From Acidobacterium sp. S8 (GTDB lineage: Bacteria; Acidobacteriota; Terriglobia; Terriglobales; Acidobacteriaceae), in the NCBI RefSeq assembly GCF_009765985.1, contig NZ_LMUM01000037.1, positions 860,747-924,746 of the forward strand: a stretch of DNA of 64,000 nt. Direction: 5' to 3'. The notes under the pieces are model-generated. The model did no database searches and had not been told where the DNA came from. It saw only the letters and a list, made by a program, of their open reading frames with translations. The position numbers and the translations under genes were made by a program. This document shows positions 4,805 through 16,577 of this stretch, in pieces; the stretch's first letter is position 1, and every line of letters begins with the position of its first letter.

Positions 4805-5519
4805 CCATCAAATCGGCTTTTTCCGCAAACACTATGCTGACCGGGAAGAACGTGTCGAGGATGTAAAACTTTCTGCTCACGACCATGCCCGCCTGCCTGA
4901 AGACGCGCGCATAGTTTCCCGTGTTCTTGTAATCGGAAATCACCGCAACACCGCCCGGCTTCAACACGCGGACAATCTCAAGACATGCGCGGTCACGCCC
5001 CTCTTTTTTCGGGATGTTATGCAGACACATATTCGATACGACGACGTCGAAGCGGTCGTCGAGGAATGTCATCTTCTCCGCGGGCGCATCGATCAACTCG
5101 CACCGATCCACCACGCCTTCTGCCGCAAGATTCTGCTCTGTGCGCTCGCGTTTGTTTTCGCTCAGGTCCTCCGCCTTCCAAATGTCGATGCCGACCGCAT
5201 GACCTGTCGTCAGCTCCTTCGCGGCCGCAACCAGCAGCAGGCCGCGTCCTGTCCCGACGTCCAACACTTCTTCATTTCCCTTGAGCGTCGCCATGCGAAT
5301 CATGCGATCGCGATGCCGCATCTTGCCGAACTTTGAATACAGCAGCATCAGAGCTGCCGTAGCCAGCAGCCAGAAGGCCGTCCATTCGAAGTGAATAATC
5401 TTCACCGGACCAATGGGAATAACCGGTGTAAATGCGCGAACGATCAGGAGCGCAGTGCCGCAGAGTGCGAGGTTGCGAATCACTCCGGGGGCGTCAATGC
5501 CATAGTCAACCTTTGCCAC
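4734..5519 (-). CDS. Membrane-anchored class I SAM-dependent methyltransferase
   Basis: The 261-residue protein begins with two hydrophobic segments (about residues 12-60), then a Rossmann methyltransferase domain. Motif I is VLDVGTGRGLLLVAAAKEL, motif II contains the acidic GIDIW, and FDVVVSNMCLHNI and VLKPGGVAVISDY are the usual motifs IV and post-IV. The start is GTG with AAGG a few bases upstream. The acceptor substrate is unknown; the membrane anchor suggests a lipid, quinone or membrane-associated target, which is inference. The last 24 codons run into the 3' end of the convergent MarC gene, and this tail looks unconserved. Confidence 0.8.
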   Translation of the reverse strand: MAKVDYGIDAPGVIRNLALCGTALLIVRAFTPVIPIGPVKIIHFEWTAFWLLATAALMLLYSKFGKMRHRDRMIRMATLKGNEEVLDVGTGRGLLLVAAAKELTTGHAVGIDIWKAEDLSENKRERTEQNLAAEGVVDRCELIDAPAEKMTFLDDRFDVVVSNMCLHNIPKKEGRDRACLEIVRVLKPGGVAVISDYKNTGNYARVFRQAGMVVSRKFYILDTFFPVSIVFAEKADLMVRKSGSSPGNLLLRCRESARRCT

Positions 5520-8355: not shown

Positions 8356-9108
8356 TCAGGATGCCGACGCATGGCAGCAGTCATAGCTCAACTGTTCATT
8401 CCAGTTTGACGGCCGTCCACCGGGCGTAAAGTCGAAGATATTCCAGATCGTATCGAGAGTCGCAAGGTGACGAGGATCCTGGCCCGGATCGGCTGGACCA
8501 TACATCATCTCCGAGCTCCAGAAGTGTCGGATCTCATCGCCGGATCGATGAAAGACCGTCATCATCGGCAACTGGTCCCCCTCAGGCGATTCGGCGTGGT
8601 AGTGGCGTTTGAAGTTATTCCCCGCCACCGACAGCAGACAGAGGTTTTTCCAGCTGCGATCCTCGGCAAACGCAATCAGACGCTCTAACGGAGCCTTCGC
8701 AATGACCACGAAGTTGATCTTCTGATTCAAATGCTTCGCCGCCCCATCCAGCTGGTCGAGAAATGTAGTGCACGAGGGACACGGTCCGTCCTCCCGCTTC
8801 AATTGAGCCGTTACACCCTCCGACGGACCCGGTCGGTCATCCTGCGGCATGCGCGGAAACATGAAGTTATAAATCACCAGCGAATCCTTGCCCGGCGCGA
8901 ACAGTTCCGAAAGCCTCAGCTTTGCTGGTACGCCGTCGGCATTGAGGCCGTCAAAGACATAATCTTCAGGAACGAGCCCACCCGGCGGCAATGCCCGCCG
9001 AGAGACGGCCACCGCTTCCATGGCGCGGCGAAGCGCAATTTCGTCCTGCATGAGGAGGTCGCGAGCGACACGATATTCGGCCGACTCGTTGGGAAAAGTG
9101 ATGCTCAT
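8356..9108 (-). CDS. DUF899 family thioredoxin-like protein
   Basis: The 250-residue protein belongs to the DUF899 family, predicted to have a thioredoxin-like fold. The typical PPGGLVPEDYVFDG segment lies near the N-terminus, DSLVIYNFMFPRMPQDDRPG and GPCPSCTTFLDQLDGAAKHL follow, and the last third is rich in Trp, Phe and His. CPSC gives a CxxC pair that could act as a redox site; this is inference. The start is supported by GGAG eight bases upstream of ATG. It is convergent with the DUF3455 gene (2 bp apart) and stands as a single-gene unit. Confidence 0.8.
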   Translation of the reverse strand: MSITFPNESAEYRVARDLLMQDEIALRRAMEAVAVSRRALPPGGLVPEDYVFDGLNADGVPAKLRLSELFAPGKDSLVIYNFMFPRMPQDDRPGPSEGVTAQLKREDGPCPSCTTFLDQLDGAAKHLNQKINFVVIAKAPLERLIAFAEDRSWKNLCLLSVAGNNFKRHYHAESPEGDQLPMMTVFHRSGDEIRHFWSSEMMYGPADPGQDPRHLATLDTIWNIFDFTPGGRPSNWNEQLSYDCCHASAS

Positions 9109-9257
9109 GATTTGGCTCCTGGTTTGTGTAGAGAAAGTCTACCGTTGTGGCCCGAGCCGGAACAAGACGAATGCCGCAGAACGCCAGTTTCACTCTGCCA
9201 GCCATCACAAAATCTAGATAGACAGCCGCAGCCATCCGCTACAATCCGAGCAAACCC

Positions 9258-10448
9258 ATGCGCATATTCGTACGAACCATTTTGGCCATTTCCTGCCTGA
9301 CCGGCATCCTTGCCGCCCAAGCCAAATCTCCAGTTACAACGCAGCAGATCAAGACTTTTTATGAATCTGGTTTGCAGCGCAACGGAATCCTCGGCAGCAG
9401 CCTCATGCTTATCCGCAATGGCGAGGTCGTACTGCACGACAACTACGGCAAACAGAGCGATACCCAACCAGTGGACGACAACACCACCTATCACTGGGCT
9501 TCCGTCACCAAGACCTTTACCGGAATCGCCATCATGCAGCTGCGCGATCGCGGCCTGCTCTCGCTCGACGATCCCCTCATCAAATACATCCCCGAGCTCG
9601 CCGCTGTGCACGACGAATATGGCACTGTCTCGGCCATCACCATCCGCGAGGCCATGTCGCATTCAAGCGGCTTCCGTGACGCTACCTGGCCCTGGCGCGA
9701 CCAGGACTGGCAGCCCTTCGAGCCAACGCAGTGGTCGCAGATCGTCGCCATGCTGCCTTATTCCAATATCAAATTTGCGCCTGGCACGCGCTACAGCTAC
9801 TCCAATCTCGCCGTCGTTTTCCTGGGCGAAATCATCGAGCGTCTATCCGGAGATCAGTTCGAGGTCTACATGCAGAAGAACATCTTTCGCCCCCTCGGCA
9901 TGGACCACAGCTACTATGACCGCAGCCCGTATACACTGCTGCGCTATCGCTCCCATAGCTGGGACTTGAAAGACGGCAAGCTGACCGAAGATCCATTCGA
10001 TTTCAACACCGGCATCACCCGCTCCAACGGCGGCCTCAACTCGCCCTTGCCGGACATGTTGAAATACATTCAGTTTCTATTAGGTGATCCGGCCCATCAG
10101 GCTGACTACGATGCCATTCTCAAGCGGTCATCGCTCGAAGAAATGTGGAAGCCAGTACTGACTGTCACGCCCGACGACGACTTCCCGTCACGCGCAGGCG
10201 CGCATGACTCCGTAGCCGAAAGCTTCTTCGTTCATAGCGATCACGGCCTGACGCTTATCGGCCATCCCGGATGGCAGAACGGATTTCGCAGCCAGATCAA
10301 CATCGATCCGGCCACGCGCAGCGCCTACATCGTCGACTACAACACCGACGCGCAGGACACGAAACAAAACACGCGCAGCTTCAACATCGAGCTGCGCGAT
10401 TTCCTGATCGATAATTTCTTTAGAACACGTGAAGCAAAAGCAGAATGA
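9258..10448 (+). CDS. Secreted serine hydrolase, class C beta-lactamase/penicillin-binding-like
   Basis: The 396-residue protein has a signal peptide (residues ~1-22, ending AQAKS) and the three catalytic elements of the class C beta-lactamase-like superfamily: SxxK in ASVTKTF, the YSN-type motif in YSYSNLAVVF, and an HxG in LIGHPGWQNG in place of KTG. HxG is common in esterases and peptidases of this group, so true beta-lactamase activity is uncertain. It probably acts in the periplasm on an ester or peptide substrate. Its 3' end overlaps the small DUF3309 gene on the other strand by 29 bp. Confidence 0.85.
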   Translation: MRIFVRTILAISCLTGILAAQAKSPVTTQQIKTFYESGLQRNGILGSSLMLIRNGEVVLHDNYGKQSDTQPVDDNTTYHWASVTKTFTGIAIMQLRDRGLLSLDDPLIKYIPELAAVHDEYGTVSAITIREAMSHSSGFRDATWPWRDQDWQPFEPTQWSQIVAMLPYSNIKFAPGTRYSYSNLAVVFLGEIIERLSGDQFEVYMQKNIFRPLGMDHSYYDRSPYTLLRYRSHSWDLKDGKLTEDPFDFNTGITRSNGGLNSPLPDMLKYIQFLLGDPAHQADYDAILKRSSLEEMWKPVLTVTPDDDFPSRAGAHDSVAESFFVHSDHGLTLIGHPGWQNGFRSQINIDPATRSAYIVDYNTDAQDTKQNTRSFNIELRDFLIDNFFRTREAKAE

Positions 10449-10566
10449 TCACGATCAGCAGGATCAGGCTGATTCCGCCGCCGCCGTAATAGCCGATGCC
10501 CGGGCCCATGCGATAGCCGCCAAATCCGAAGACGAGGAGAAGAATAATGAGAATGATGAGAAGCAT
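10420..10566 (-). CDS. Small DUF3309-type membrane protein (48 residues)
   Basis: Translating the minus strand from ATG at 10566 gives 48 residues: a hydrophobic helix (LLIILIILLLVFGFGGYRMG), a glycine-rich turn with GYYGGGG, and a second helix (ISLILLIVIILLLLHVF). Two short leucine/isoleucine helices around a Gly-rich loop are the layout of DUF3309 proteins, small bacterial membrane proteins of unknown function. AGGA lies about 6 bases before the ATG. The last 29 bp overlap the 3' end of the serine hydrolase. Family membership is recognised from pattern only. Confidence 0.7.
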   Translation of the reverse strand: MLLIILIILLLVFGFGGYRMGPGIGYYGGGGISLILLIVIILLLLHVF

Positions 10567-10682
10567 GTGTTGTCCTTTCTGAGTGACTCATTCACATTTG
10601 TGAAATCACTCGTAGGATGCGTCTTCCGCGCTTTCTGTGTGTGCTTTTTTTAGATTCTTGTGTCCGCCCGGGTTGACAGCGA

Positions 10683-12098
10683 TCAATAATCTCCTTCAGG
10701 AGCGATCATTTCAAGCGGTTTTCTCTCGGCGGCGATTCCCCATACAGCCTGTGCCAGACCAGCGGCGGCCATCGCAACTGCCCCGAATACATACCCTGAA
10801 AACAGCAATGCGCGCGAGCCGCTGCCGATCAAATGGCCGAAGATCAACGGGCCAGATACTCCCCCGGCCAGCGTGCCGAAAGCATAGAAAATGGCAATCG
10901 CCGAGGCTCGAATCTCCTGCGGAAAAACTTCGCTCACCGTCAGATAGGCGGAGCTCGCCGCCGCCGACGCGAAGAAGAAGATCAGCGACCACCAGACCAT
11001 TTGCCCGGCTACCGTAAGTTCGTGACGATAGAACATCCAGCTGCCGGCGAACAACAGCAGGCCGGAGAGGCCGTAAGTGGCTCCGATCATCTGCCGCCGT
11101 CCTACCGAATCAAACAGATACCCAAGCAGCGCCGGTCCCAAGAAGTTTGCTGCCGCAATCGGAAGAAAGTAATATCCCGCCGCTTGTGCCGACACACCGT
11201 AGTACCGCAGCAGAACCAGGGACAGTGAGAAAAATACCGAGTTATAGAAGAATGCCTGTGCCGCCATCAGACCGAAACACAGCAGCGCCCGCCGCCGGTA
11301 TTCACCCTGCAATAGCCGTCGCAGGCGACGCAGAGTTTGTCGCCGTCCACTCTCATATCGAACAAGGTCCGCCGTTTGTACGGGAGGAAGCGCGCCCGCT
11401 TCACGCCGCACCGACTCCTCAATCGTCTGAACAACTGCCGCCGCCTCTGTTTGCAATCCCTGACGCAGCAACCAGCGCGGGCTCTCCGGAACAAACCGGC
11501 GCATCAGCAGAACGGCAGCGCCAAGCGGAACGCCGGACAGGAATGCAAGCCGCCATCCGAGTTTTTCTCCAAACACGGCAGAGGAAAGGAAAGCCACGGA
11601 CACCAGGGCTCCGAGAATAATCCCAAGCCAGAACGTGCCGTTGATCCAGAGATCGACCCGTCCCCGCAGCCGTGCGGGAAGCAATTCATCCACTGCGGAA
11701 TTCACCGCGGCATACTCGCCGCCAATCCCTGCTCCCGTTATTGTCCGGAAAAAGGTAAAACTCGCGAGACTCCAGGAGAGCCCTGTCGCCGCAGTGGCGC
11801 AAAGATACAGCAGCAGCGTCCACAGAAAGAGCCTGCGCCGTCCATAGCGGTCGGCTAGATATCCAAAAACTAAAGCACCCGCCACCGCGCCCATCAGATA
11901 GAACGAAGAGCTGAGGCCAAGTTGGGCATCGGTAAGGCCAAGCGTTGCAGAACTCTTCAGCGCGCCGGCAAGCGACCCGCCCAGGCTCCCTTCGAGGCCA
12001 TCAAGCAACCATGTGATTGAAAGCGCGGTGACAATTCGCAGATGCCAGCCACTCCACGGCAGCCGGTCCAGTCGTGCGGGAATGTCGGTCTCAATCAG
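10683..12098 (-). CDS. Major facilitator superfamily transporter with a non-canonical start
   Basis: A 12-helix MFS transporter of the sugar/aromatic-acid type, with GYLADRYGRRRLFLWTLLLY after helix 2 and PESPRWLLRQG at the central loop. The first standard start codon in frame (TTG at 12008) lies inside the first transmembrane helix and would drop its first half. The open frame continues upstream to a stop at 12105-12107, and the added residues (ETDIPARLDRLPWSGWH, then RIVTALSITWLLDGLEG) match the normal N-terminus of this group. The likely start is CTG at 12098, nine bases after GAGG, or ATT at 12095, giving about 471 residues. It is 73 bp downstream of the ECF42 gene and may be in its operon. 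Confidence 0.85.
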   Translation of the reverse strand: MIETDIPARLDRLPWSGWHLRIVTALSITWLLDGLEGSLGGSLAGALKSSATLGLTDAQLGLSSSFYLMGAVAGALVFGYLADRYGRRRLFLWTLLLYLCATAATGLSWSLASFTFFRTITGAGIGGEYAAVNSAVDELLPARLRGRVDLWINGTFWLGIILGALVSVAFLSSAVFGEKLGWRLAFLSGVPLGAAVLLMRRFVPESPRWLLRQGLQTEAAAVVQTIEESVRREAGALPPVQTADLVRYESGRRQTLRRLRRLLQGEYRRRALLCFGLMAAQAFFYNSVFFSLSLVLLRYYGVSAQAAGYYFLPIAAANFLGPALLGYLFDSVGRRQMIGATYGLSGLLLFAGSWMFYRHELTVAGQMVWWSLIFFFASAAASSAYLTVSEVFPQEIRASAIAIFYAFGTLAGGVSGPLIFGHLIGSGSRALLFSGYVFGAVAMAAAGLAQAVWGIAAERKPLEMIAPEGDY

Positions 12099-12171: not shown

Positions 12172-13446
12172 TTACGAATTACCGGAGCGCGCCGCAAACT
12201 CGCGAGCCCGTTCCAACAGCAATTCCCGCTCACGCGCGTTGCGGGTCATTGAGGCGGCGCGTTCACACTCCGCCTGAGCCTCGTCATACCGGTGCAGTTT
12301 GGCCAACAGGTCACCGCGCACGCTCGGCAACAGGTGATAGCCCTTGAGCGCAGGCTCGGTGTTCAACTCGTCTACCAGCTCCAATGCCGCCGCTGGCCCA
12401 GACGCCATGCCCACCGCAACCGCGCGGTTCAATTCAACAATCGGTGAAGGCATCACCTGTGCAAGCTCGCCATAAACCTCCACAATGCGGGCCCAGTCTG
12501 TCTCATCTGCGACTACCGCCCGTGCATGACATGCCGCAATCGCAGCCTGCAGGGCATACGGTCCCCGCGCTTCGCCCAGAGCGTCGGCGCGCTCCAGCGC
12601 CTGCAACCCACGACGGATCAGCAACCGGTCCCATCGCGCCCTGTCCTGATCGAGCAACAGCACCGGCCGTCCCTCCGGCCCTGTCCGCGCCGCAGACCGA
12701 GACGCTTGAATCTCCATCAACGCGACCAGCCCATGCGCTTCCGCTTCACCCGGAGCAAGCTCCGCAAGAATGCGTCCCAGCCGTAGCGCATCTTCGCAAA
12801 GCGCGGGCCTCATCCAGTCGTCGCCCGCTGTTGCCGAATAGCCTTCGTTAAAAATCAGGTAGATGACGCTCAGGACTGAAGCCAGCCGCCGCGGCAGTTC
12901 ATCGCCGCGCGGAACTTCAAACGGAATATGCTCCTGTGCCAGCGTTTTCTTGGCGCGGACGATCCGCTGCGCAATGGTGGCTTCAGGAACCAGAAACGCC
13001 CGGGCAATCTCATCGGTCGTAAGACCGCCCAGCAGGCGCAATGTGAGCGCCGTGCGGGCCTCGGACGAGAGCACCGGATGGCACGCAATAAAAATCAATC
13101 GCAGAAGATCGTCGCCAATGTCGTCATCGAGAGCTGCGTTGAAGTCCGGCACGGCCAGCTCCTTCGCTTCCATCTCGCGGCCAAGCTCTTCATGCTTGCG
13201 CTCGAGCATCTGCCTTCGCCGCAGCTGATCGAGCGCGCGATGCTTCGCCGTGGCCATCAGCCACGCGCCAGGCTTTTCCGGAATGCCCAACTCGGGCCAC
13301 TTCTCCAGCGCGCAAACCAGCGCTTCCTGCGCCAGATCTTCTGCGAGGCCCACATCGCGCACCATGCGCGTGAGTCCGGCAATCAGTTTTGCCGACTCTA
13401 TTCTCCATACCGCGTCGATCGTGCCATGAATATCCGTAGCCGTCAC
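12172..13446 (-). CDS. ECF42-type sigma factor with C-terminal TPR-like domain
   Basis: This 424-residue protein joins an extracytoplasmic-function sigma factor (residues ~1-180: region 2 with DLAQEALVCALEKWP and AWLMATAKHRALDQLRRR, region 4 with TLRLLGGLTTDEIARAFLVP) to a ~230-residue helical extension with the conserved YLIFNEGYSATAG motif. This is the ECF42 architecture (DUF6596), known to be encoded with DGPF/YciI-like proteins and to use its extension for activity in place of a classical anti-sigma factor. Three DGPF genes lie directly upstream, and two carry a matching promoter. The start is GTG; an anti-sigma gene is absent, as expected. Confidence 0.93.
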   Translation of the reverse strand: MTATDIHGTIDAVWRIESAKLIAGLTRMVRDVGLAEDLAQEALVCALEKWPELGIPEKPGAWLMATAKHRALDQLRRRQMLERKHEELGREMEAKELAVPDFNAALDDDIGDDLLRLIFIACHPVLSSEARTALTLRLLGGLTTDEIARAFLVPEATIAQRIVRAKKTLAQEHIPFEVPRGDELPRRLASVLSVIYLIFNEGYSATAGDDWMRPALCEDALRLGRILAELAPGEAEAHGLVALMEIQASRSAARTGPEGRPVLLLDQDRARWDRLLIRRGLQALERADALGEARGPYALQAAIAACHARAVVADETDWARIVEVYGELAQVMPSPIVELNRAVAVGMASGPAAALELVDELNTEPALKGYHLLPSVRGDLLAKLHRYDEAQAECERAASMTRNARERELLLERAREFAARSGNS

Positions 13447-13476
13447 AGCTAACGATCACATCATCATTGCCGCTGA

Positions 13477-13836
13477 CTAAGCAAGCTGGCAGTCGAGTAC
13501 CGGACGGATTTCGTACTCCGCTTCCACATCGCCGCGCAGCGTTGGGCAGCGCTTGATCCAGGCAATTGCTTCTTCTTTCGAAGCAACCTCGATCATCGTC
13601 ACTCCCGCTATGAGTTCCTTCGACTCGGAAAATGGTCCGTCCACAGTCGAGAACTCGCCTTTCGAAAAACGAACCCGCGTCCCGCGCGAAGTTGGCTGCA
13701 GTCTCTCCACCGCCACTAAGGCCCCAGCCTTCTTCATCTCTTCGTCGTACTCATGCATCGCCTGAAAAAGCTCTTTGCTCGCCGGAATATCCGAATCCAT
13801 CGTCGCATCGGATTTCCGCAAAATCACAAACCGCAT
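13477..13836 (-). CDS. YciI-like DGPF protein (copy 1)
   Basis: This 119-residue protein belongs to the YCII-related family named after its DGPF motif, seen here in STVDGPFSESKELIAG near residue 70. The N-terminal MRFVILRKSDATMDSD and the later EAIAWIKRCPTLRGDVEAE are also typical. The fold is a dimeric ferredoxin-like barrel; the biochemical activity of these proteins is unknown. I start at the ATG at 13836 because GGAGG ends 9 bases upstream; the earlier TTG abuts that site. It lies 30 bp before the ECF42 gene and 15 bp after DoxX, so all three are probably one transcript. Confidence 0.9.
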   Translation of the reverse strand: MRFVILRKSDATMDSDIPASKELFQAMHEYDEEMKKAGALVAVERLQPTSRGTRVRFSKGEFSTVDGPFSESKELIAGVTMIEVASKEEAIAWIKRCPTLRGDVEAEYEIRPVLDCQLA

Positions 13837-13851
13837 CGTGTGCAACCTCCA

Positions 13852-14265
13852 TCAGCTCGAACGCCGCAATGGAATCATTGCACACAAGGGCTCATCTCGC
13901 AGACACAGCCCCGCCCACAGCAAAATTCCCATATACACAGGAAACAGCGTATTCGAGAACAGCGGATTTCCCACGCGCCACTGGACCGCCACCGCGCCGC
14001 CAAGATATCCCGTTAACAGAACTGCGCCCAGTACCGCCGTATTCGGAATGGCATAAAGAATCGTGCAGAGAAGCAGCACAATTCCCGTCGTGATCGTAAT
14101 TTCGTCCGGCCATCCCAGCGCCGCCTGGGCCTTGAGCACTGGAGCTGGTTTCATCAGCTTCATCACGCTGTCCATCAAAAGAAAAAGAACGACCAGTCCG
14201 CTCAATATGCGTCCCGTCCAGAGTCTCTTCGCTGAAACCGTATTGCCAATTGCAACTTCCTGCAT
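13852..14265 (-). CDS. DoxX family membrane protein
   Basis: The 137-residue product has four hydrophobic segments, with the DoxX-type first helix GRILSGLVVLFLLMDSVMKL and the following EITITTGIVLLLCTILYAIP and LGAVLLTGYLGGAVAVQWRV. DoxX-like proteins are small four-helix membrane proteins; some are subunits of thiosulfate:quinone oxidoreductase, but most are uncharacterised. GGAGG lies five bases upstream of the ATG. Within ECF42 neighbourhoods DoxX-like genes are known companions of DGPF proteins, so a shared stress role is likely but unproven. Confidence 0.85.
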   Translation of the reverse strand: MQEVAIGNTVSAKRLWTGRILSGLVVLFLLMDSVMKLMKPAPVLKAQAALGWPDEITITTGIVLLLCTILYAIPNTAVLGAVLLTGYLGGAVAVQWRVGNPLFSNTLFPVYMGILLWAGLCLRDEPLCAMIPLRRSS

Positions 14266-14278
14266 AAATCCTCCCCAG

Positions 14279-14312
14279 AAAAAAAGGCTCTGCCTTCGTT
14301 CACAACAGAGCC
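14279..14312 (-). terminator. Intercistronic terminator-like hairpin before doxX
   Basis: On the minus strand GGCTCTG pairs with CAGAGCC (loop 13 nt) and is followed by seven T residues. It lies between the VOC stop (14323) and the DoxX start (14265), only 13 bp before the latter's ATG, so it could act as a terminator or attenuator splitting the ECF42 cluster. Confidence 0.7.
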
Positions 14313-14322
14313 CTCGCTTAAT

Positions 14323-14733
14323 TCACGCCGGCTGCACGGTGTTCACCATCCACGGAATACCAAAGCGATCCGTCACCATCCCGAACTTTGGCGACCAGAA
14401 GGTCTGCGCGATCGGCATCGTCACATTCCCTTTTTCAGCCAACGCAGCGAAGATGCGATCTGCTTCTGCTACGTCATTCACTGAGATAGATACCGTTAAG
14501 CCTTGCGGCTTGTGGTAATACTGCGGCGGAGCGTCGGACCCCAGCAGCATCCTGTCACCGACTCTCAACGAAATGTGCATGATCTTGCCGCTCCACTCCG
14601 GTGGAAACTGACCGGCCATCGGTGACTCACCGTGGGTCATCTTGAATTCGATCTTCCCGCCGAAACACTGCTCGTAAAATTTGAATGCTTCTTCGCAATC
14701 GCCGCTGAAATTCAAATATGAATCGATCTGCAT
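14323..14733 (-). CDS. VOC superfamily protein, PhnB/glyoxalase-like
   Basis: The 136-residue protein shows the PhnB-like VOC pattern: N-terminal SYLNFSGDCEEAFKFYEQCF, then HISLRVGDRMLLGSD, and the C-terminal FWSPKFGMVTDRFGIPWMVN. VOC proteins form paired beta-alpha-beta-beta-beta modules and often bind a metal; this subgroup is frequently misnamed 3-demethylubiquinone methyltransferase. No reaction can be assigned. The gene sits between a DGPF gene upstream and DoxX downstream, the common content of ECF42 loci. Its ribosome binding site is a GA dinucleotide repeat ending three bases before the ATG. Confidence 0.88.
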   Translation of the reverse strand: MQIDSYLNFSGDCEEAFKFYEQCFGGKIEFKMTHGESPMAGQFPPEWSGKIMHISLRVGDRMLLGSDAPPQYYHKPQGLTVSISVNDVAEADRIFAALAEKGNVTMPIAQTFWSPKFGMVTDRFGIPWMVNTVQPA

Positions 14734-14735
14734 AG

Positions 14736-14750
14736 CTCTCTCTCTCTCTC
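14736..14750 (-). repeat. (GA)7 microsatellite serving as Shine-Dalgarno
   Basis: Seven CT units on the plus strand read as GAGAGAGAGAGAGAG directly before the VOC start codon. Any GAGAG within it can pair with 16S rRNA, so change in copy number would alter spacing. Confidence 0.75.
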
Positions 14751-14803
14751 AAACAAAGATTCGTCATCCTGACGATGGGTACAAGTGAAACCTTTTTGGG
14801 GGC

Positions 14804-15205
14804 TTATTTTAGCGCCACCTGCGCATGCTGCTGGTGTACTCCAGGCGCCGATCCAACGCAGACATCGCCCTGCTCGTAGATCTGGCGAATCTCGGTCTCG
14901 CCGTCGCCTGCGACTTCAAGAAATCGCTTTGAAAGTTCAATCGCCTCATCCTTCGACTCTGTCTCGAGCAGCGCAAAGCCGGCGATCAGCTCCTTCGATT
15001 CGGTAAACGGTCCATCCACCACGGCGAACTTCCCGTTAGAAAGCCGCAATCGAGCGCCATTCGCGCTCGGCATGCAGCCTTCTGTCGCAATCAGCTTGCC
15101 GGTCTTCGTCATCTCTTCAATGAACGCTCCCATCTTCGTAAAGTCCTCCTGCGTTGGTGGAGCGCCTTCTTCTTTCGCCGGTTTGTATACGCACAAAAAT
15201 TTCAT
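14804..15205 (-). CDS. YciI-like DGPF protein (copy 2)
   Basis: A 133-residue YCII-related protein with VVDGPFTESKELIAGFALLE at about residue 62 and an N-terminal MKFLCVYKPAKEEG block. An extra ~20-residue tail (GDVCVGSAPGVHQQHAQVAL) follows the usual EIRQIYE end, unlike the other two copies. AAGGAG sits seven bases before the ATG, and a TGTCGA-N17-CGAT promoter lies 47 bp upstream. Function unknown; association with the ECF42 sigma factor is established for the family. Confidence 0.9.
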   Translation of the reverse strand: MKFLCVYKPAKEEGAPPTQEDFTKMGAFIEEMTKTGKLIATEGCMPSANGARLRLSNGKFAVVDGPFTESKELIAGFALLETESKDEAIELSKRFLEVAGDGETEIRQIYEQGDVCVGSAPGVHQQHAQVALK

Positions 15206-15251
15206 CGTTTCATCTCCTTAAATTGCTTTCTAGAATTCCCTCTGCCTATCC

Positions 15252-15278
15252 ATCGAATGGCGCTGAGTTAATTCGACA
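15252..15278 (-). promoter_or_regulatory. Predicted ECF42 promoter of DGPF copy 2
   Basis: On the minus strand TGTCGA (15278-15273) is followed after exactly 17 bp by CGAT (15255-15252). The start of transcription would fall about 40 nt before the ATG at 15205. The same layout is found before DGPF copy 3, and TGTCGA is the -35 element described for ECF42 sigma factors. Confidence 0.65.
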
Positions 15279-15290
15279 CACGCACCAAAA

Positions 15291-15728
15291 TTAATTTTGT
15301 GCAGCTACTTGCGCGCGCAGACGGTCATCCTGTTCTTTCAGCTCTGGAGTCAGCGCGTCGCCTAAATCTTCTGCTTCGTACACCGGCCGAATCTCAATAT
15401 ACGACTCCTCCCTGGGAAACGGGCATGGACAGCGTTTCACCCACTCCACCGCCTCTTCCATCGATTTCACCTGCCAGATCCAGTAGCCGGCCACCAGCTC
15501 TTTTGCTTCCGCGAACGGCCCATCGATCACCGTGCGCTCCGCACCGGAAAACAGCACCCGCTTGCCCTTCGAGCTCGGCTGCAATCCATCGGCAGCCAGC
15601 AGCACACCGGCCTTCACCAGCTCTTCGTTGAACTTGCCCATCTCTGCCAACATTTCGCTCATCTCTTCGGTTGGCGGCAGCCCCGCCTCCGATTGCTTTG
15701 TTCCCTTCACCAACACCATCACACGCAT
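15291..15728 (-). CDS. YciI-like DGPF protein (copy 3)
   Basis: A 145-residue YCII-related protein with VIDGPFAEAKELVAGYWIWQ near residue 65 and an N-terminal MRVMVLVKGTKQSEAG. I use the ATG at 15728 because AAGGAGAG precedes it by four to five bases; a frame-open extension of nine codons upstream has no such site. It is the first gene of the cluster in the direction of transcription and has a predicted ECF42 promoter about 69 bp upstream. The C-terminal EIRPVYEAEDLGDA and the Gln-rich tail are variable regions. Function unknown. Confidence 0.9.
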   Translation of the reverse strand: MRVMVLVKGTKQSEAGLPPTEEMSEMLAEMGKFNEELVKAGVLLAADGLQPSSKGKRVLFSGAERTVIDGPFAEAKELVAGYWIWQVKSMEEAVEWVKRCPCPFPREESYIEIRPVYEAEDLGDALTPELKEQDDRLRAQVAAQN

Positions 15729-15796
15729 ACGTCTCTCCTTCGTTTGGAAGTCCATCGTTGGGCGATTTACCCTTGTATCTCACCCTCTACTCACAC

Positions 15797-15823
15797 GTCG
15801 AACGGCACACCGCGAAATCGACA
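15797..15823 (-). promoter_or_regulatory. Predicted ECF42 promoter of DGPF copy 3
   Basis: On the minus strand TGTCGA (15823-15818), a 17-bp spacer and CGAC (15800-15797) match the ECF42 promoter pattern. A second TGTCGA in the opposite direction (15827-15832, toward the LRR gene) lacks a CGAC/CGAT at 17 bp, so only the minus direction is supported. Confidence 0.7.
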
Positions 15824-15902
15824 CGCTGTCGAACTTTTCCTAAGATATTTATGGATTAAGAACGCCCACCCTCAACGCAGGGAACACGATACGATCTCCA
15901 TC

Positions 15903-16577
15903 ATGTCCGACGTCTCAGCTTTGCACCTCAACCTCTGGAAGCAGAATCTCGGTCGGGTGCCCGACTCGGTATGGGAACAAATCGACCTCGAATCCCTGGT
16001 TTTGGCCGAGAATCAACTGGCAGAAATTTCCGATCGCATCGCAGGCCTGAAGCGCCTCCGCATGCTCGACCTCGGCCACAACCAACTCAGCCGGATTCCG
16101 GATGCCATAGGCAATCTCGAAGCGCTCACTGATTTTCTCTATCTCCACGACAACCAGCTGACCACGCTCCCTGCATCCATCGAGCGTTTGAAACATCTCC
16201 GCTACCTGAACATCAGTGACAATCAATTCTCGATATTCCCCGAAGCCCTCTGCCGTCTCGACCATCTCATCGAGCTGCGTGCCTCCGGCAATCAGCTCAC
16301 AGCAGTTCCGGGTTCCATATCTCAGCTCCGAAATCTCCGCGAGCTGCATCTCAGAGACAATCGCCTTTCTTCGCTGCCGCCATCCATCGGCGAGCTGTGT
16401 GGCCTCCGCCACATCGACCTTCGCGGCAACCCAATTCAATCACTGCCATCGACTCTGGCCGAACTCCCGAAACTCGAAAAAGTCGATCTGCGCTGGGTCG
16501 TCAATTTTTCAAGACCAGTAGAACTCCCCGCATGGCTAAGTGAACTCGAAGCAAATGGCTGCCTCATCTGTAGATAA
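15903..16577 (+). CDS. Leucine-rich repeat protein
   Basis: The 224-residue protein consists almost wholly of leucine-rich repeats of about 23 residues (for example LVLAENQLAEISDRIAGLKR and LDLGHNQLSRIPDAIGNLEA), with roughly eight units. No signal peptide or transmembrane segment is visible, so it is probably cytoplasmic and acts in protein binding. The start is the ATG at 15903; the frame extends upstream only through the ECF42 promoter region. It is divergent from the ECF42 cluster. Its partner is unknown. A bidirectional terminator lies 38 bp downstream. Confidence 0.85.
   Translation: MSDVSALHLNLWKQNLGRVPDSVWEQIDLESLVLAENQLAEISDRIAGLKRLRMLDLGHNQLSRIPDAIGNLEALTDFLYLHDNQLTTLPASIERLKHLRYLNISDNQFSIFPEALCRLDHLIELRASGNQLTAVPGSISQLRNLRELHLRDNRLSSLPPSIGELCGLRHIDLRGNPIQSLPSTLAELPKLEKVDLRWVVNFSRPVELPAWLSELEANGCLICR

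Follow-up and report, generated by a model that had tools for sequence, protein, structure and literature searches.

Two sites on the minus strand of the window, by which we mean the whole 64 kb stretch of DNA analysed, are very probably ECF42 promoters, a kind that is already known. We put the probability at about 0.92 that the ECF42 sigma factor of this gene cluster directs RNA polymerase to both sites, termed P3 and P2. The assignment to the ECF42 type follows from three observations taken together: 75 of 98 YCII genes in related loci are preceded by such a site, both window sites have high matrix scores, and promoters of the same geometry exist in Sinorhizobium meliloti. The motif, its spacing, its conservation and its covariation with the sigma factor are established by sequence comparison.

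An ECF42 gene cluster with three YCII genes

Read along the minus strand, the cluster has the order P3, YCII copy 3, P2, YCII copy 2, VOC, DoxX_2, YCII copy 1 and ECF42 sigma factor. The three YCII-related (DGPF) genes match Pfam family PF03795: copy 3 (15291-15728, E 2.5e-18), copy 2 (14804-15205, E 6.9e-12) and copy 1 (13477-13836), which adjoins the sigma gene and lacks a promoter site of its own. Between copies 2 and 1 lie a PhnB-like glyoxalase/VOC gene (14323-14733, PF00903 and PF06983) and a gene for a DoxX_2 membrane protein (13852-14265, PF13564). The sigma gene itself (12172-13446) encodes 424 amino acids and was placed in a tree of 187 relatives.

The literature on this group describes ECF42 sigma factors as having regions 2 and 4, a long, TPR-rich C-terminal extension of about 200 residues, and a YCII (DGPF) gene adjoining the sigma gene (PMC8999054). 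Over its 424 residues the window's sigma factor contains Sigma70_r2, Sigma70_r4_2 and, as a C-terminal extension, DUF6596, and three YCII genes lie upstream of it on the same strand; the Pfam scan gave no TPR family in it above the cut-off used. ECF42 factors are further expected to lack an anti-sigma gene and to be controlled through their C-terminal extension. None of the nine products scanned with Pfam matches an anti-sigma family, and no Rfam family reaches threshold in 13400-16000. In many plasmid records from enterobacteria and Acinetobacter, the match is confined to residues 227-384 of the sigma factor, and several of these are annotated as DUF6596 protein; such matches are possibly sigma remnants or a separate protein.

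Where three YCII genes precede the sigma gene on its strand, the pattern site-site-none (5' to 3') is the commonest, occurring in 9 of 14 loci when duplicates are removed and in 10 of 16 with duplicates. Among the nine are the window and L042, its nearest relative, as well as L084 and L226, whose sigma factors are near-identical to each other. Thus, two promoters combined with a siteless sigma-proximal YCII gene constitute a recurring arrangement. Two plasmid loci, from Nostoc and Leptolyngbya (L281 and L282), have a YCII gene oriented divergently from the sigma gene and preceded by two tandem ECF42-type promoters with a distance of about 82 bp between them.

The two sites

P3 (15797-15823, minus strand) lies upstream of YCII copy 3 and consists of a -35 box TGTCGA (15818-15823), a 17-bp spacer and an extended -10 element CGTTCGAC (15797-15804). 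P2 (15252-15278, minus strand), upstream of YCII copy 2, has the same -35 box (15273-15278), a spacer of the same length and the extended -10 element CATTCGAT (15252-15259). The preliminary description had noted TGTCGA, a 17-bp spacer and CGAT or CGAC before YCII copies 2 and 3 on this strand, and this is exact at both sites, P3 reading TGTCGA-N17-CGAC and P2 TGTCGA-N17-CGAT. These are the sole matches to TGTCGA-N17-CGAY in the window, and neither the motif search nor a matrix scan found a third ECF42 site there. Measured against the form expected of ECF42 promoters (TGTCGN and CG[A/T]C, 17 bp apart, located before YCII or other cluster genes), P3 agrees fully; P2 has CGAT in place of CGAC, and the position agrees for both.

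Several features extend beyond what had been described earlier, namely an A-rich block upstream, CGTT or CATT directly before CGA[C/T], and TAGAG or CAGAG downstream. In P3 the place of the A-rich block of relatives is taken by AGGAAAA (15835-15841, minus strand), which may resemble an UP element. The putative transcription starts are the A of TAGAGGG at 15788 for P3, at the same distance as the S. meliloti SMc01149 start and within the conserved TAGAG, and the A of CAGAGGG at 15243 for P2, by analogy with the profile of 75 sites described below and the data on S. meliloti (PMC6180224). P2 deviates from the consensus (CATT, CGAT, CAGAG) and has a lower matrix score than P3.

Specificity of the short motif

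The short motif taken alone is suggestive only, since shuffled versions of the window contain TGTCGA-N17-CGAY 0.41 times on average and 9 of 100 shuffles have at least two matches. When TT is added before the CG, the resulting pattern TGTCGR-N15-TTCGWY still matches twice in the window, and 0 of 100 shuffles reach two. By this measure the longer pattern is decisive and the short motif is not.

In the organism's own genome (5.4 Mb), the short motif occurs 44 times versus 17 for a reversed-pattern control, and TGTCGR-N15-TTCGWY 12 times versus 12. On these counts neither pattern is specific by itself, and the short motif alone is not usable as the searchable tag for the regulon that had been proposed. 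Of the 12 longer matches, the window pair and a site before an orphan YCII gene score high by matrix, and the other nine score below 9; a large regulon in this genome is not supported. A 39-nt consensus allowing at most three mismatches has three matches in the genome (P3, P2 and one other; control, 8). With at most two mismatches it is found in 33 of 151 genomes of the class, with 65 matches versus 19 in control columns.

The orphan YCII gene lies about 700 kb from the window cluster and has an ECF42-like promoter with a matrix score of 37.3 (4943-4969 in locus L124; C29:169942 in the organism's own genome). This promoter is a sign of a target in trans. By eye, its site resembles a second site type found in the clade of one of the genome's other ECF42 sigma factors, that of contig C30, to which it is assigned on this basis.

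Enrichment upstream of YCII genes in related loci

We used the window's sigma factor as query and took the best 80 of 572 relatives' loci from genome contigs. By record title these belong to Acidobacteria, Gemmatimonadetes, Actinobacteria, Proteobacteria, Myxococcota, Chloroflexi and others, with many metagenome bins. A start could be assigned for 98 YCII genes in 65 of the 80 loci. TGTCGA-N17-CGA[C/T] is present within 400 bp upstream of 51 of these genes, with none on the reverse strand. In a spacing scan with TGTCG[A/G]-Nk-CG[A/T]C, 70 genes have a match at k = 17, compared with 0 to 11 at every other k from 10 to 24, and the reverse strand gives 0 at 17. The somewhat broader TGTCG[A/G]-N17-CG[A/T][C/T] precedes 75 of the 98 YCII genes in 58 of the 65 loci and is lacking before the remaining 23; in 15 loci at least two such genes have it.

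Away from YCII genes, the strict motif occurs 24 times on both strands of the 1.32 Mb of these loci; at that density 0.12 matches would be expected before YCII genes, where there are 51. The preliminary description had made its reading depend on enrichment of the motif before ECF42-associated genes in related genomes, and the 80 loci bear this out for YCII genes. Together with the RpoE10-responsive S. meliloti promoters of the same geometry, the enrichment supports its view of both sites as ECF42-type promoters. It is highly improbable that P3 and P2 are chance or coding-sequence matches. Such a reading can draw on the shuffles and genome counts for the short motif given above; it is contradicted by this enrichment and by the matrix scores, and both sites lie upstream of YCII genes within a full and conserved promoter. 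One short-motif match with TTCGAC, in locus L024, falls, as judged by eye, within coding sequence resembling an integrase gene and was discounted as chance.

The check proposed in the preliminary description also named DoxX and VOC genes, and some further sites do precede such genes. In 2.39 Mb of ECF42 surroundings there are 165 matrix matches scoring at least 20, 129 of them before YCII genes as called. The other 36 were sorted by eye, aided by ten Pfam scans: at least four precede YCII genes at greater distance, others lie before VOC genes, DoxX genes or genes for small hydrophobic proteins, while for some no target is evident. The small hydrophobic proteins (93-133 aa, similar-looking, not aligned) each follow an ECF42 matrix match of 21.6 to 59.7. 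They occur in L225, L231, L105, L070, L226, L090, L217, L050, L223, L056, L043, L082, L215, L224, L213 and L216, all Acidobacteria except L056; Pfam gave no match for the three that were tried. As the window has no third ECF42 site, no small hydrophobic gene follows one there.

The full promoter profile

The 75 sites of relatives share more than the two boxes. In the stretch 12 to 18 nt upstream of the -35 box, each of seven positions has A in 45-68% of sites. The -35 box is followed by TTT, and CG[A/T]C is immediately preceded by CGTT (77-96% per base) and followed by GT. From the eighth nucleotide past the -10 box the profile reads T80 A72 G72 A78 G73 (percent). The full promoter thus comprises an A-rich upstream block, the two boxes, CGTTCGAC, and TAGAG at the putative start. 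The SMc01149 start of S. meliloti, mapped by RNA-seq and 5'-RACE, coincides with the position of the A of TAGAG according to Table 1 of the source (PMC6180224), so that TAGAG probably spans -1 to +4.

A 59-position matrix with fixed 17-bp spacing was built from the 75 sites, excluding the window; positions whose boxes had no TG and no CG were passed over in the scans. P3 scores 61.6 and P2 40.8, compared with 12.5 for the next best place in the window. In 1.32 Mb of locally shuffled sequence, one place has a matrix score of 8.

A perfect inverted repeat, TCGACA-GCG-TGTCGA (15818-15832), overlaps the -35 box of P3. This repeat would suit an operator for a DNA-binding repressor in place of a promoter, a reading that we regard as very unlikely. 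P2 has no inverted repeat, and TCGAC occurs within 15 nt upstream of the -35 box in only 2 of the 75 relatives' sites, on which ground a conserved TCGACA-N3-TGTCGA operator at P3 was rejected. The motif instead has two directional boxes at a fixed distance of 17 bp, an A-rich block and a conserved start region, covaries with the recognition helix of the sigma factor, and precedes start sites mapped in S. meliloti.

Paralogous sigma factors and promoter variants

The genome encodes three ECF42 sigma factors, that of the window and one each on contigs C30 and C10. We added another 110 ECF42 loci from the class, including five already present in the 80-locus set, and sorted the promoter list by clade of the tree of 187 sigma factors. 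For the class set and the three own loci, with 180 YCII genes, TGTCGR-CGWY within 300 bp occurs at spacing 17 before 79 genes and at spacing 16 before 13; on the reverse strand there are 4 at 17. When TGTC[G/C][A/G] and spacings of 16 or 17 are allowed, 100 of the 180 genes have a site within 200 bp.

Promoter variants differ by clade. C30-type clusters have mainly TGTCGA-N16-(A/C)ACGACTA, with a spacer of 15 in two near-identical loci, and a second form, TGTCGAATTCC..GTTCGACTA, with spacing 17. Members of the C10 clade have TGTCCA in 6 of 10 cases (at spacing 18 in L269) and TGTCGA in two, and no site was found in the other two; TGTCCA of this type goes with an S-K-R or G-K-R helix. A single fixed spacer for all ECF42 promoters was rejected, as the C30 clade commonly has a spacer of 16, as does part of another clade, and a few loci have 18. 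The 18-bp form, TGTCGA-N18-CGTC, is seen in L097 and L118 (Saccharothrix; two related Actinomycetota). On the organism's own contig C30 (L122, about 8530-8570), a second TGTCGA-N16-CGACTATAAGG site follows the second YCII gene and lies upstream of a MacB/FtsX-type permease gene (8737-11223).

With three such sigma factors in one genome, P3 and P2 might be read by the C30 or C10 paralogue and not by the sigma factor of their own cluster; the C30 sigma factor in particular shares the helix residues A-Q and likewise has adjoining TGTCGA sites. We consider this unlikely; some cross-talk from the C30 sigma factor may occur. Read directly, the sites beside the two paralogues are different variants, in keeping with the C30 and C10 forms just described. 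Moreover, P3 and P2 fit the matrix of their own clade, on which the C30 and C10 stretches reach at most 12.2, the matrix being fixed at 17-bp spacing.

Covariation of the recognition helix with the -35 element

Assignment of P3 and P2 to the sigma factor of their cluster can also be approached through its region 4 recognition helix, TIAQRIVRAK. In the sigma alignment, xAQR goes with TGTCGA, xSKR, GKR or AKR with TGTCCA, and xEKR or ERR with TGTCCG. The two variable residues are A159 and Q160 (codons at 12967-12972, minus strand); residue 159 covaries with base 6 of the -35 box and residue 160 with base 5.

The first set comprised 156 sites from 127 loci, picked regardless of bases 5 and 6. At base 5, K goes with C in 7 of 7 sites, R with C in 1 of 1 and Q with G in 146 of 148; at base 6, E goes with G in 3 of 3 and A, G, S or Q with A in 153 of 153. 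Seven K/R loci had no site by the criteria used, two of which, L178 (TGTCCA) and L268 (TGTCCG), have one in a looser list; the C10 site was read directly in L123.

Three later sets were read after the rule had been noted and were scored by eye, using the best candidate per locus. Among 18 plasmid loci (set 1), base 5 is right in all 11 with Q or K and a site, and base 6 in 11 of 13 (misses, L275 and L290). Outside the rules are L279 (R-Q-R, TGTCGC) for base 6 and five loci with A or V in place of Q/K, for which the base 5 rule is silent; one further locus has no YCII gene and one A-Q-R locus no site. Set 2 consisted of 20 new loci of the phylum, every one of them with Q and several belonging to a single genus. 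Here base 5 is right in 16 of the 17 with a site (miss, L302) and base 6 in 17 of 17; two have no site and one no YCII gene. Among 31 loci (set 3), base 5 is right for 11 of 13 with K, the misses being L323, whose second-best site is TGTCCG, and L338, and for 13 of 13 with Q. Base 6 is right in 21 of 24 (misses, L323, L335 and L359), with L338 and L344 outside the rule; L351 was dropped as a repeat of L308, three loci have no site and one has no YCII gene. Another ten loci that came up with set 2 and seven with set 3 were already in the first set and were therefore not counted. Over the three sets, base 5 is right in 51 of 54 cases and base 6 in 49 of 54. From the S. meliloti box TGTCGG, known beforehand, the rule predicts an E-Q-R helix, and strain Ak57 (L353) has AMEQRITRAK.

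All sets combined contain 256 distinct sigma factors and 206 sites in 176 loci. K or R goes with C at base 5 in 19 of 21 sites and Q with G in 178 of 182; at base 6, sites with E have G in 11 of 12 cases, and those with a small residue (or Q/N) have A in 187 of 193. When all sigma columns are scanned, residue 160 ranks first for base 5, and residue 159 ranks third for base 6 by normalised score, with the top raw score of the four listed. A basic residue goes with C at base 6 in L279 (R with TGTCGC) and L344 (K with TGTCCC, a weak site). In a printed alignment to the ECF sigma structure 6in7, A159 and Q160 fall on R and S of the helix TVRSRIFRAR.

When the helix columns are left out of the tree, residue 160 changed at least four times and base 5 at least five times; well supported branches hold only two independent pairs, both concordant, too few for a sign test. 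Residue 159 changed at least twice and base 6 at least six times, and hence base 6 also moves without residue 159. Independent change was simulated by placing random base changes on the tree; nine rows that did not fit the two-state coding of a trait, or of both, were omitted from the count concerned. Five base 5 changes never agree as well as the data (0 of 200,000; 1 mismatch in 169), and six base 6 changes do so in 291 of 200,000 (4 mismatches in 172). The main weakness of the covariation is the small number of independent events.

These data make a two-residue code for ECF42 sigma factors likely. In this code, Q at residue 160 would read G5 and K or R would read C5, and at residue 159 a small residue would read A6, E would read G6 and K or R would read C6, the last from two loci only. 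Combined with changes of spacer and -10 element, such differences would separate paralogue regulons in one genome, here A-Q with TGTCGA-17, A-Q with TGTCGA-16 and S-K with TGTCCA-17. As a lead only, residue 69 may form a second code for the third base of the -10 box (A or T), with N going with T in 30 of 32 cases, F with A in 23 of 23, and H and R mixed. Our literature search, which covers few subscription papers, found no title or abstract describing a residue 159/160 code for ECF42.

Proposed mechanism and implications

From these comparisons we infer that P3 and P2 are used by the cluster's own sigma factor. Its region 4.2 would bind TGTCGA, with Q160 reading base 5 and residue 159 base 6, and region 2 would open the extended -10 element C[G/A]TTCGA[C/T]; the A-rich block may bind the alpha C-terminal domain. 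Transcription would begin at the A of TAGAG or CAGAG, giving a leader of about 60 nt from P3 and 38 nt from P2 ahead of the start codon. P3 would serve YCII copy 3. P2 would serve YCII copy 2 and perhaps, by read-through, the VOC, DoxX, YCII copy 1 and sigma genes, the last of which could create positive feedback. This read-through may be cut by two weak hairpins that resemble terminators, at 14761-14775 and 14283-14297 (z -1.5 and -1.1), which lie downstream of P2 and ahead of the sigma gene on the minus strand.

The analysis provides a supported promoter model for the ECF42 group, which is widely distributed among Acidobacteriota and also occurs in other phyla. Covariation ties sites to their sigma factor without experiment and helps to assign promoters to paralogues within one genome, and the two-residue recognition code is testable. 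Rewiring of ECF specificity in general has already been published, reportedly by Todor and colleagues in 2020 on the basis of covariation.

Comparison with known systems

ECF42 promoters of Streptomyces venezuelae, reportedly described by Liu and colleagues in 2018, are said to carry TGTCGA and CGA/TC. For the ECF42 factor RpoE10 of S. meliloti, the source gives TGTCGG-N17-CGTC for the SMc01149 and SMb20475 promoters, both of which go up on RpoE10 overexpression (PMC6180224). These resemble P3 and P2 in having two boxes exactly 17 bp apart, and the SMc01149 start lies 9 nt past the -10 box, at what is here the A of TAGAG. They differ in combining TGTCGG, an E-Q-R helix and CGTC, whereas the window has TGTCGA, A-Q-R and CGAC or CGAT. 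In the same study, the motif of SMc01151, the YCII gene of the rpoE10 operon, overlaps the gene start, and this operon does not respond to RpoE10 overexpression; on that evidence, positive feedback is not general (PMC6180224). Strain Ak57 (L353) has both the published SMc01149 promoter, before the corresponding gene, and the SMc01151 motif.

Experimental work on other ECF factors touches the same helix positions. In Corynebacterium glutamicum sigma-H, a set of four changes that by our alignment covers positions 159 and 160 exchanged -35 specificity (PMC11588781). For E. coli sigma-E, T169, R171, S172, R173 and R176 are named in -35 recognition; R171, or K170 in SigW of Bacillus subtilis, bonds the template G opposite C at -31, and S172, or T171 in SigW, contacts base -34 (PMC6713349). 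The named residues fit the 6in7 pattern, and residues 159 and 160 are on this ground, and not by direct alignment to sigma-E, equated with R171 and S172. As in sigma-E and SigW, a basic residue at position 159 goes with C at base 6 in the ECF42 loci L279 and L344. Unlike in those factors, where the residue aligned with 160 contacts -34, the longer Q or K side chain of ECF42 tracks base 5.
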